Source: Myxococcales bacterium (GTDB taxonomy: Bacteria > Myxococcota_A > Polyangia > Nannocystales > Nannocystaceae). From it: a stretch of 34,948 bases of DNA. The stretch spans positions 1-34,948 of the forward strand of contig JAAZXR010000045.1 of assembly GCA_014240065.1 (NCBI GenBank), given 5' to 3'. The notes under the pieces are model-generated. The model did not search any database. It worked only from the letters and a program-made list of their open reading frames with translations, and had not been told where the DNA came from. How positions within the stretch are numbered: position 1 is the stretch's first letter; the number at the start of each line of letters is the position of its first letter. Both the position numbers and the translations under genes were made by a program. Shown piece after piece: positions 24,013 through 27,136 of this stretch.

Positions 24013-24645
24013 ATGTTCCTCTCCTCATCTCCCCCTCGAGCCTGCGGCGCTTGCTGCCGTCTGCTCCTCACCTCAAGCACCTCGGGCCTGTGCCAGACAT
24101 GCGTCGAAGACTGCACCGAAGTGGCGCACGATCACGGATCGAGAGTCAACGCCTTGTTCGCCTACGAGGGCTCCCTCAAGGCCCCGCTCGCGCGGCTTAA
24201 ATACAGCCGCGAGTTCGGCGTCGCGCGGCTGTTCGCTGACCTCCTCGCGCCCCGCATCGCCGCGCTCGCGCGAGGACGCAGCGTTGTGATCGTCCCTGTA
24301 CCGATGAGCCCCACCCGCAGGTTATCGCGGGGCTGCAACCACACCGAGTTGATCGCCCAGTGGCTCCCGCTCGCCCAGCTCGGCGCGACGCTGCTCCCGC
24401 GCGGCGTCTTGACCCGCGCCCACCGCCCCGCGCAGGTGGGGTTGTCACGAGCGCAGCGGCTCCGCAACACCTCCGGCGCCTTCTCCCTGCGGGCCCGCGC
24501 CCAGGCGTCCTTGCGCGGCGAGACCGTGCTCGTCCTCGACGATGTCATCTCGACGGGGGCGACCCTCCAAGGCTGTTTTGAGGCGCTGAGCCGCACAGGA
24601 GCCGACGAATTCCAAGGACTTGCCCTGCTGCGCCGCGTTGCGTAG
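24013..24645 (+). CDS. comF: ComF family phosphoribosyltransferase-like protein
   Basis: The 210-residue protein has the ComF layout. An N-terminal zinc-finger-like part (CGACC and CQTC near 11-30) comes first. The core contains IVPVPMSPTRRLSRGCNHTELIA and the HRPAQVGLSRAQRLRNTSGAF segment. The PRPP-binding loop VLVLDDVISTGATLQGC is at about 172-188. ComF proteins (GntX/YhgH in E. coli) are linked to DNA uptake during natural transformation, probably acting in the cytosol with the helicase ComFA or PriA. The biochemical activity is unproven. The gene lies one base before smpB, suggesting joint transcription. The ATG is the first in frame, without a strong Shine-Dalgarno sequence. Confidence 0.87.
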   Translation: MFLSSSPPRACGACCRLLLTSSTSGLCQTCVEDCTEVAHDHGSRVNALFAYEGSLKAPLARLKYSREFGVARLFADLLAPRIAALARGRSVVIVPVPMSPTRRLSRGCNHTELIAQWLPLAQLGATLLPRGVLTRAHRPAQVGLSRAQRLRNTSGAFSLRARAQASLRGETVLVLDDVISTGATLQGCFEALSRTGADEFQGLALLRRVA

Positions 24646-24646
24646 C

Positions 24647-25138
24647 GTGGCGGTGTTGGCTGCAGGCAAGACAAAGAAAACCACCCCTGGCTTGCTGGTG
24701 GAGAATCGAAAAGCGCGGCACGAGTACCACCTCATCGAGGAGTACGAGGCGGGCCTCTCCCTCGTGGGCAGTGAGGTCAAGTCGATCCGCGACCGCAAGA
24801 TCAGCCTCGCGGAGGCGTTCTGTCAGTTCTTTGGTGATGAGCTGTACCTTATGCAGGCGCACATCGCCGAATACACGAACGCCCACGCGCGGAATCACGA
24901 GCCGCTTCGAAGACGAAAATTGCTCCTGAAGCGGAAAGAACTCGATACGATTCGCGACGCGGTGAAGCTCCAAGGGGTTACGGTGATTCCCACAAAGGTC
25001 TACTTGAAGGACCGACGGATCAAGCTAGGCATCGCGCTCGGCAAGGGCAAAAAGCTGCACGACAAGCGCGCTTCGATTCGCGAGCGAGAACAAAAACGAG
25101 AGATGGATCGCGCGCGGCGACGCGACGACATCTCGTAG
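24647..25138 (+). CDS. smpB: SsrA-binding protein SmpB
   Basis: SmpB binds tmRNA and brings it to stalled ribosomes for trans-translation. Family motifs are LLVENRKARHEYHLIEEYEAG, LSLVGSEVKSIRDRKISL, RRRKLLLKRKELDTI and VTVIPTKVYLKDRRIKLGI, and the tail KGKKLHDKRASIREREQKRE is basic and helical as required in the decoding site. The length of 163 residues is normal. The GTG start follows the comF stop by one base, and a further GTG two codons on is equally possible. The tmRNA gene itself is not in this window. Confidence 0.94.
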   Translation: MAVLAAGKTKKTTPGLLVENRKARHEYHLIEEYEAGLSLVGSEVKSIRDRKISLAEAFCQFFGDELYLMQAHIAEYTNAHARNHEPLRRRKLLLKRKELDTIRDAVKLQGVTVIPTKVYLKDRRIKLGIALGKGKKLHDKRASIREREQKREMDRARRRDDIS

Positions 25139-25182: not shown

Positions 25183-26685
25183 ATGCTCTTGAGGTTGGCG
25201 ACGCCACGACATGCGAACACCCTCGACAGACTCCCTGCGCTGATTCAGGCGGGCGTGCGCTGCTTTCATCTTGAGACCGAGGAGGAGTCCCGCGCTGTGG
25301 AGCTGCTCGAGCGGCACGCAGAGACCGGCGATATGGACCTCCGCCTCTGGTCGGCCGCCTCAGGGGTCGACGAAGACCGTGTCCATACGCCGCTGCTCGA
25401 GAGCCTTCGCGGCCTGCGTCACCGACCGAAGGAGGAGCTGTGGGTGTTCCTTGAGCCCGACCCGTGGCTCAAGGATCCCCTCGCGCGCCGAGAGCTCCGT
25501 GAGCAGACCGCGCTGCCCGCGGGGCCGACCGTAGTGGTCGTGAGCCCCGAGCCCCTCGAGCGCAGGCTCCAGGCGGTCGTCACCCCCGTCACCCTCCCGT
25601 TGCCAACGGACGCTGAACTCGCGGCGGTCGTCGTGGCGACCTTCGCCGCGTGGACAGGCGCGCGACCTGTGGCCTGGCGCGACAACACACAAATTGAGCG
25701 ACTCGCGCGAGCGAGTGTCGGACTCGGCGAAGTCCAGGCCGCCCAGGCGCTGCGTTTCGCGTTGGCCGAGTGCGGCGATGAATTCGATGAGGTGCTGCGT
25801 CATATCCGCGAGCACAAGGGCAGCATGCTCGACAGCGGCGGCGCGCTCGCTCGGGTGAGCCCTGTCCCCCCCGATGAGATCGGGGGCCTCAGACCCCTGA
25901 AGCACTGGATCGTCCAGCGCGCGTTGTCCCTGAGGCCAGAGGCCCAACGCGCCGGCATCCCCCGCCCAAAAGGGCTGCTGCTCGTCGGTGTTCAAGGCTG
26001 CGGGAAGAGCCTCGCTGCCCGCGCCTGCGGCCACTTGCTCGGGCTCCCCATCCTGCGCCTCGACGTCGGCGCGCTGTTCTCCTCCGCGCTCGGATCCTCG
26101 GAGCGAAACCTCCACTCGGTCATCACGGTGTGTGAGCGCATGGCCCCCGTCGTCCTCTGGCTCGACGAGATCGACAAGAGCATGCCGATGACCAACAGCG
26201 CCGCGAGCGATGGAGGAACCTCGGCGCGATTGATGGCGTCCTTGCTCACGTGGATGCAAGATCGCGCGCAGACCGTCTTCGTGGTCGCCACCGCCAACAA
26301 CATCGCGAGGATCCCACCGGAGTTGATCCGACGAGGCCGACTCGACGAGACGTTTTTCATCGGCCTGCCTGACGCCGCCGCGCGCGTCGAGATCCTCGAC
26401 GTCCACCTTCGCAAGGTGCCCGAGCGCAGCCTCGGCTCGCTGCCGCCGCTCCAAGACTCATTCGCGGCCTTCGCCTCCGTCGTCGAAGGCGCCCACGGCT
26501 GGTCCGGGGCCGAGATCGAGGCCGCGGTGACCGAGGCCCGCCTCTTGGCCTTCGCGGACGGCAGGCCCGTCGCCTCCTCCGATCTCCGCGACGCGGTCGC
26601 CGCCACCGTGCCCATGAGTCGCAGCCACGCCGAGTCCATCCACGCGCTGCTCGAGTGGGCGGAGGCCCGGGCGCGGCTCGCCTGA
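25183..26685 (+). CDS. Ycf46-like AAA+ ATPase
   Basis: The 500-residue protein has an N-terminal domain (1-220) resembling that of cyanobacterial/chloroplast Ycf46, including the HRPKEELWVFLEPDPWL segment. A single AAA+ module follows, with Walker A GVQGCGKS (269-276), Walker B VVLWLDE (323-329) followed by IDKS, and the arginine-finger segment IPPELIRRGRLDE. Ycf46 is linked to CO2 handling in cyanobacteria, but its molecular role is unclear, so only ATP-driven remodelling can be proposed. A GGGG sequence lies eight bases before the ATG. The next gene may encode a Ycf35/DUF1257-like protein, and the pair is likely co-transcribed. Confidence 0.8.
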   Translation: MLLRLATPRHANTLDRLPALIQAGVRCFHLETEEESRAVELLERHAETGDMDLRLWSAASGVDEDRVHTPLLESLRGLRHRPKEELWVFLEPDPWLKDPLARRELREQTALPAGPTVVVVSPEPLERRLQAVVTPVTLPLPTDAELAAVVVATFAAWTGARPVAWRDNTQIERLARASVGLGEVQAAQALRFALAECGDEFDEVLRHIREHKGSMLDSGGALARVSPVPPDEIGGLRPLKHWIVQRALSLRPEAQRAGIPRPKGLLLVGVQGCGKSLAARACGHLLGLPILRLDVGALFSSALGSSERNLHSVITVCERMAPVVLWLDEIDKSMPMTNSAASDGGTSARLMASLLTWMQDRAQTVFVVATANNIARIPPELIRRGRLDETFFIGLPDAAARVEILDVHLRKVPERSLGSLPPLQDSFAAFASVVEGAHGWSGAEIEAAVTEARLLAFADGRPVASSDLRDAVAATVPMSRSHAESIHALLEWAEARARLA

Positions 26686-26728
26686 GATCCAACTCGCGTC
26701 CGCGGACGACTCGGGGCATCATCAGCCC

Positions 26729-27136
26729 GTGAGCCAGTACGTCGAGGCAGAGATCGCGGGGGTGTCCGTGGCGGAATTGGAGTCCGCTCTACAGGAATTG
26801 GGCCTGACCTGTGAGCGCTCACGCCGAGGCGCGGGGACCGTGATGCTCGACGGTTGCCTCGAGAGCGCGGGGCGCCCGGTGCACCTCCGGATCGAAGCTG
26901 GCGTCCTCGACACCGCGGAGGACTTCGGGTTTTTGACCGATGGGGGGCAGGTGCGGCTCGTGTGCGGAGACGTCGATCAATCGCTCCTCACCGCGCGCCT
27001 CTTGGCGCCGATCCACGCGAAGATTGTGGAGGCGAGGATTCGCGTACAGGGGGCGGCCTGTGTGGAGACATCGATCTCCTCCGACGCCTCCGGGCGCGAC
27101 GGGGCGGAGGTTGTGATCCGTGTGTCCGAAGACTGA
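26729..27136 (+). CDS. Small protein, possibly DUF1257/Ycf35-like
   Basis: The 135-residue protein is soluble, with no signal peptide. Its layout resembles DUF1257 (Ycf35): an N-terminal MSQYVEAEIAG strand, a helix AELESALQELGL, a central DFGFLTDGGQVRLVCGDVD comparable to the DIGF...YELVAD segment of that family, a long helix, and a final strand VVIRV. The match is by pattern only, not by close identity, so the family call is tentative. It starts with GTG 43 bp after the Ycf46-like ATPase gene in the same direction. DUF1257 genes occur next to AAA ATPase genes in several lineages, which supports the idea. It is convergent with the aldolase gene. Confidence 0.5.
   Translation: MSQYVEAEIAGVSVAELESALQELGLTCERSRRGAGTVMLDGCLESAGRPVHLRIEAGVLDTAEDFGFLTDGGQVRLVCGDVDQSLLTARLLAPIHAKIVEARIRVQGAACVETSISSDASGRDGAEVVIRVSED

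Follow-up and report, generated by a model that had tools for sequence, protein, structure and literature searches.

The locus presented here raises the question of whether Ycf46 and Ycf35, two proteins retained in red-algal plastids and cyanobacteria with poorly understood functions, belong together in a heterotrophic bacterium. In Synechocystis the corresponding genes, ycf46 (slr0374) and ycf35 (in the fed7 cluster), sit apart. The window, meaning the whole stretch of 34,948 nucleotides that was analysed, derives from a Myxococcales bacterium of the family Nannocystaceae. A sequence-only reading had placed a Ycf46-like AAA ATPase beside a small, possibly DUF1257-like protein at 25183-27136, and both open reading frames are present there (Table 1). 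Both are real genes with orthologs in a congener and across the Nannocystaceae: the ATPase shares 76% identity with its ortholog in the congener and 41-50% across the family, and the small protein shares 66% in the congener and 35-50% in 17 further genomes. A genome-contig search gave a match in the congener only.

Table 1. Positions of the two genes, their upstream neighbours and the motifs of the ATPase within the window
Feature	Position	Strand	Residues	Remarks
ComF-type phosphoribosyltransferase	24013..24645	+		First in the same-strand run; Pfam PF00156, 1.2e-6
smpB (tmRNA-binding protein)	24620..25138	+		Pfam PF01668, 4.7e-53
Ycf46-like AAA+ ATPase	25183..26685	+	500 aa	ATG start
N-terminal Ycf46-type domain			~1-245
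AAA module			~246-480
Walker A, GVQGCGKS	25987..26010	+	269-276	Kept in Nannocystaceae AAAs and in DUF1257-linked AAAs
Pore-loop-1 region, LFSSALGSSE	26074..26103	+	298-307	By alignment to VAT D1 SKYYGQSE and D2 SKWVGESE
Walker B, VVLWLDEIDK	26149..26178	+	323-332	
Arginine-finger segment, IRRGRLDE	26326..26349	+	382-389	
Putative partner, small diverged DUF1257/Ycf35-like	26729..27136	+	135 aa	GTG start

The ATPase gene comes first, and 43 nt separate its stop from the start of the small gene. Upstream lie the ComF-type gene and smpB, co-directional and closely packed with the pair; smpB ends 44 nt 5' of the ATPase gene. The ComF-smpB order is kept in Nannocystaceae, smpB precedes the ATPase in nearly all loci of the family, and RsfS and RlmH are encoded upstream of this region. 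A convergent class I aldolase gene follows the pair downstream. In nearly every Nannocystaceae genome a conserved gene of ~210 aa lies between smpB and the ATPase (for example L053:11065-11694 on the minus strand and L057:3722-4462); it has no Pfam match and is missing from this position in the genus of the window.

By the Pfam definition the 135-aa protein falls outside DUF1257, and the claim made here is one of distant homology. The HMM search that had been proposed as a check was negative in its Pfam form, with no PF06868 match in the protein and none in the 4.7-Mb genome, but comparison of family profiles did produce a match. Homologs of the small protein were found in 19 genomes among 39 relatives searched, all of them Nannocystaceae, to which the family is confined, and every ortholog starts M-S-[RQ]-[YF]-V. 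In hhalign this 19-member family aligned with 30 myxococcal DUF1257 proteins over 123 columns (95.7% probability, P 8.8e-9), colinearly from the shared M-S start through to near the C-terminus, while reversed and 50 column-shuffled DUF1257 alignments, used as controls, reached a probability of at most 1.4%. When a DUF1257 profile was run over 2780 six-frame ORFs, a true DUF1257 protein took rank 1 and 16 members of the Nannocystaceae family took ranks 2-17, which bears out what had been a guess from pattern. The E-values of this reverse search are individually marginal, with the window's own protein among the weakest (E 6), and the assignment therefore rests on the whole family and not on a single sequence. 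Searched against 290 genomes of the class, the small-protein family profile matched four genes outside the family, all of them positive with the DUF1257 profile; one of these, the neighbour of a DUF2997 gene in genome G007, scores above the Pfam DUF1257 cut-off.

Structure prediction may point in the same direction. AlphaFold models of the small-protein family and of DUF1257 (mean pLDDT 79 and 87) agree in how their strands and helices succeed one another, and the two models, looked up separately in the PDB, have weak neighbours in common, KA1 and BamC, with Z of ~6.5, below 8. These VIA matches were treated as a common arrangement and not as a fold identity, and Foldseek against PDB and BFVD returned nothing at E < 0.001. 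Judged from profiles and models, the 135-aa protein is best described as a diverged DUF1257, predicted to be a small single-domain alpha/beta protein. It resembles Ycf35/DUF1257 (PF06868) in the full-length colinear profile match, the M-S-x-aromatic start and, apparently, the predicted topology. However, the MSHF start of DUF1257 is kept only as MS[RQ][YF]V, the ADWWGVE motif is absent and replaced at that position by LVCGExD, and the family has an ECxGEPVDLR motif of its own. Matches to PASTA, at E 0.046, and to aspartate dehydrogenase, at E 0.023, fell below the cut-off in Pfam/NCBIfam and were rejected. Querying PDB sequences with the DUF1257 profile yielded only weak matches, likewise rejected, the best being 6ner at E 0.008.

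The larger gene encodes an ATPase whose AAA domain matches Pfam PF00004 (3.2e-26) and whose active-site motifs, Walker A, Walker B, sensor 1 and arginine finger, are all intact. The Ycf46-type N-terminal domain is also present, with alignments beginning at about residue 17, including those to DUF1257-linked AAAs; residues 17-487 align with a cyanobacterial plasmid AAA located near DUF1257 and DUF2997, and residues 13-498 give a full-length match to the phage family phrog_8638 (7.8e-100). The comparison with Ycf46 (slr0374 in Synechocystis) runs through the cyanobacterial plasmid AAA: the order of motifs is the same and the N-terminal domain is included in the likeness, but identity is ~33% and window-type AAAs occupy a deep branch separate from the DUF1257-linked AAAs. 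In the AAA tree the DUF1257-linked proteins group into one clade (100/99). A long branch (100/100) separates them from the Nannocystaceae AAAs, and several other Ycf46-like groups fall closer to the DUF1257-linked clade. Given the great length of the outgroup branch, we place no trust in the root within the Nannocystaceae group. At the pore-loop-1 aromatic position, where the rings of archaeal VAT have Tyr and Trp, the window protein has Ala, Nannocystaceae AAAs mostly have Thr, and DUF1257-linked AAAs have Leu.

Beyond the Nannocystaceae family, the association of such an ATPase with DUF1257 is highly regular. A Ycf46-like AAA lies immediately upstream of DUF1257 in all 30 sampled Myxococcota DUF1257 loci, and a DUF2997-type gene, confirmed by Pfam at L075, lies immediately downstream in the same 30. 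Exactly this order, AAA-DUF1257-DUF2997, recurs on a plasmid of Candidatus Manganitrophus (Nitrospirota); on a Bacillus licheniformis plasmid (Bacillota) single genes are interposed within the trio, and on a Pseudanabaena plasmid (Cyanobacteriota) the trio is preceded by GrpE and Hsp70. The window shares with these loci an AAA gene followed by a DUF1257-type gene on the same strand after a short gap, but it has smpB upstream and no DUF2997, of which there is none anywhere in the window genome, and its relatives often have intervening genes. In cyanobacteria, ycf35 is clustered with duf2997 and the ferredoxin gene fed7 (PMC4284462); that small conserved group of genes likewise contains a DUF1257 member, but it includes a ferredoxin and lacks an AAA, the reverse of what the window contains.

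Two further settings of DUF1257 were observed. A second DUF1257-type module of Nannocystaceae (L129:7281-8550 and L134:7800-9086) combines DUF2997, DUF1257 and a Fer4_12/radical-SAM protein; its DUF1257 bears a coiled-coil-like insert, a sigma factor lies nearby in L129, and a Ycf46-like AAA and large unknown genes lie upstream in L134. On a Geminocystis plasmid (L149:2945-9452), genes reminiscent of defence loci, namely an ATP-binding protein/RloB pair, DUF4007 and a zeta toxin, are interspersed among DUF1257, DUF2997 and a Ycf46-like AAA.

Within the Nannocystaceae, 18 genomes have both the ATPase and the partner, six have neither and one has the partner only, with several of the absences coinciding with incomplete assemblies. 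Direct adjacency on the same strand is seen in 5 of the 18 (G000, G001, G002, G009 and G013); one to three genes, encoding a response regulator, M17 aminopeptidase, PilZ or TauE, intervene in eight; the two genes lie ~8 kb apart in opposite directions in one, are split by contig ends in one, and are on different contigs in three. At one locus (L068) the partner still adjoins the M17 gene though the ATPase has moved. The expectation of conserved adjacency thus held throughout the 30 other myxococcal loci but only partly in the family of the window itself. In genus g7, smpB and the ~210-aa gene behind it are kept and the ATPase and partner are both gone, at a locus that is readable on both sides in G007 and G015; this is one joint-loss event, and no more than suggestive of a partnership. 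Tree distances of ATPase and partner correlate no better than those of ATPase and ComF.

We consider it moderately probable that the two genes constitute a Nannocystaceae-specific, strongly diverged Ycf46-Ycf35 module, in which an AAA ring remodeller acts with a dedicated partner. As far as the sequences indicate, the likeliest mechanism would be that of a partner-dependent, ATP-driven remodeller: the Ycf46-like ATPase would assemble into a ring that remodels a target protein or complex, with the DUF1257-like protein as its dedicated partner, recruiting the target or setting the timing of ATPase action. Since the pore loop lacks its aromatic residue and the module has no conserved protease, local remodelling or disassembly would be favoured over processive unfolding that leads to degradation. 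These features count weakly against a threading unfoldase, and the proposed mode leans mainly on one pore-loop residue.

As to what such a machine might act on, stress-related upkeep of proteins or Fe-S enzymes offers the best lead to a role, short of a conclusion, because DUF1257-DUF2997 is accompanied by Fed7, by the Fer4_12/radical-SAM protein and, on one plasmid, by GrpE/Hsp70. Loss of fed7 makes cells less tolerant of oxidative stress and iron limitation (PMC4284462). Two observations on ycf46 add to these leads. A Synechocystis ycf46 mutant had reduced EcaB carbonic anhydrase activity (Jiang et al. 2015, as cited in PMC7496141), and several stresses, iron deficiency among them, elicit a response of the slr0374 operon (PMC7496141). 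A bolder reading, which we regard as speculative and rather unlikely, would make Ycf46 and Ycf35 one ancient, photosynthesis-independent maintenance machine for proteins or Fe-S enzymes, with the Nannocystaceae pair as its minimal two-component form, working without DUF2997 or ferredoxin. Were this so, the pair would be tractable enough to help uncover what the two plastid genes do.

The closeness of the two genes in the window could also be read as history rather than cooperation. It is possible, if doubtful, that the small protein is a DUF1257 homolog whose proximity to the ATPase is inherited gene order, their joint work having been lost. Such a history would sit well with the intervening genes and separation seen in many relatives, with tree distances that reveal no specific co-divergence of ATPase and partner, and with the stable neighbours that the ATPase has of its own, smpB and the ~210-aa gene. 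It is harder to reconcile with a Ycf46-like AAA adjoining DUF1257 at every one of the other myxococcal loci, with AAA genes near DUF1257 on plasmids of several phyla, and with the joint absence of ATPase and partner in g7 despite the persistence of smpB and its neighbour.

Those same neighbours suggest another reading, in which the ATPase works with the translation and ribosome proteins encoded beside it (RsfS, RlmH, SmpB), for instance in handling tmRNA-tagged proteins, with the small protein in an accessory role. The smpB-(~210-aa gene)-ATPase order conserved across Nannocystaceae with RsfS and RlmH upstream, and the M17 aminopeptidase downstream in several loci, would fit such a role; however, g7 keeps smpB and the ~210-aa gene without the ATPase, gene order in housekeeping loci is often passive, and the DUF1257-linked loci that were read show no link to translation genes, so that we think it improbable. 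Less probable still is an anti-phage or conflict system. The plasmid AAA-DUF1257-DUF2997 set beside zeta toxin, RloB and DUF4007, the match of PADLOC IetA models to the AAA domain, and homologs of both proteins in phages speak for it, but the IetA matches span only the generic AAA domain and leave the partner uncovered, and the locus in the window is inherited vertically, among housekeeping genes. Relative to these alternatives, the diverged Ycf46-Ycf35 module remains our preferred reading, and both of its sequence-level expectations, similarity of the small protein to DUF1257 and a conserved ATPase-DUF1257 neighbourhood, were found.

The genome of the window contains no Photo_RC and no RuBisCO large subunit, and the module here is therefore non-photosynthetic; with the trio also carried on Bacillus and Manganitrophus plasmids, the earlier proposal of a module not tied to photosynthesis holds. 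Such independence could already be read from existing annotation, in which Bacillota and Nitrospirota carry the trio. The novelty lies in a diverged form of the family, under Pfam detection and without DUF2997; among the literature searched, no paper linked Ycf46 to Myxococcota. The constant adjacency of the two genes in heterotrophs, even in this Pfam-invisible version, would tie Ycf46 and Ycf35 together as a single functional unit and removes photosynthesis as their required context. This suggests that the two proteins, both poorly understood, cooperate in some role outside photosynthesis. Two orphan genes become a single hypothesis open to test, and a minimal pair is available for reconstitution.

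Relatives of both proteins occur in further surroundings. The genus of the window has a second Ycf46-like AAA paralog, in its own genome (L071:8133-10565) and in the congener (L072:7342-8847), that adjoins an acyl-CoA dehydrogenase gene, and another Ycf46-like clade of the class (L076, L077, L079) directly adjoins a PilB/GspE-type T2SSE ATPase with an MshEN domain; no DUF1257 lies near any of these loci. The ~600-aa neighbours of the other Ycf46-like AAAs were considered as a common component and rejected, their identities being different: T2SS-type ATPase, acyl-CoA dehydrogenase, helicase or FHA protein. On the Treponema succinifaciens plasmid pTRESU01, DUF1257 (L153:4001-4408) lies inside a phage-tail-like cluster with tail sheath and baseplate genes, and a Ycf46-like AAA is encoded elsewhere on the same plasmid. 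A viral-contig search for DUF1257 returned one locus, and the Prochlorococcus phages P-SSM2, P-SSM5 and P-SSM7 carry DUF1257 homologs (H47-H50, H54) of 27-34% identity that are annotated as hypothetical.
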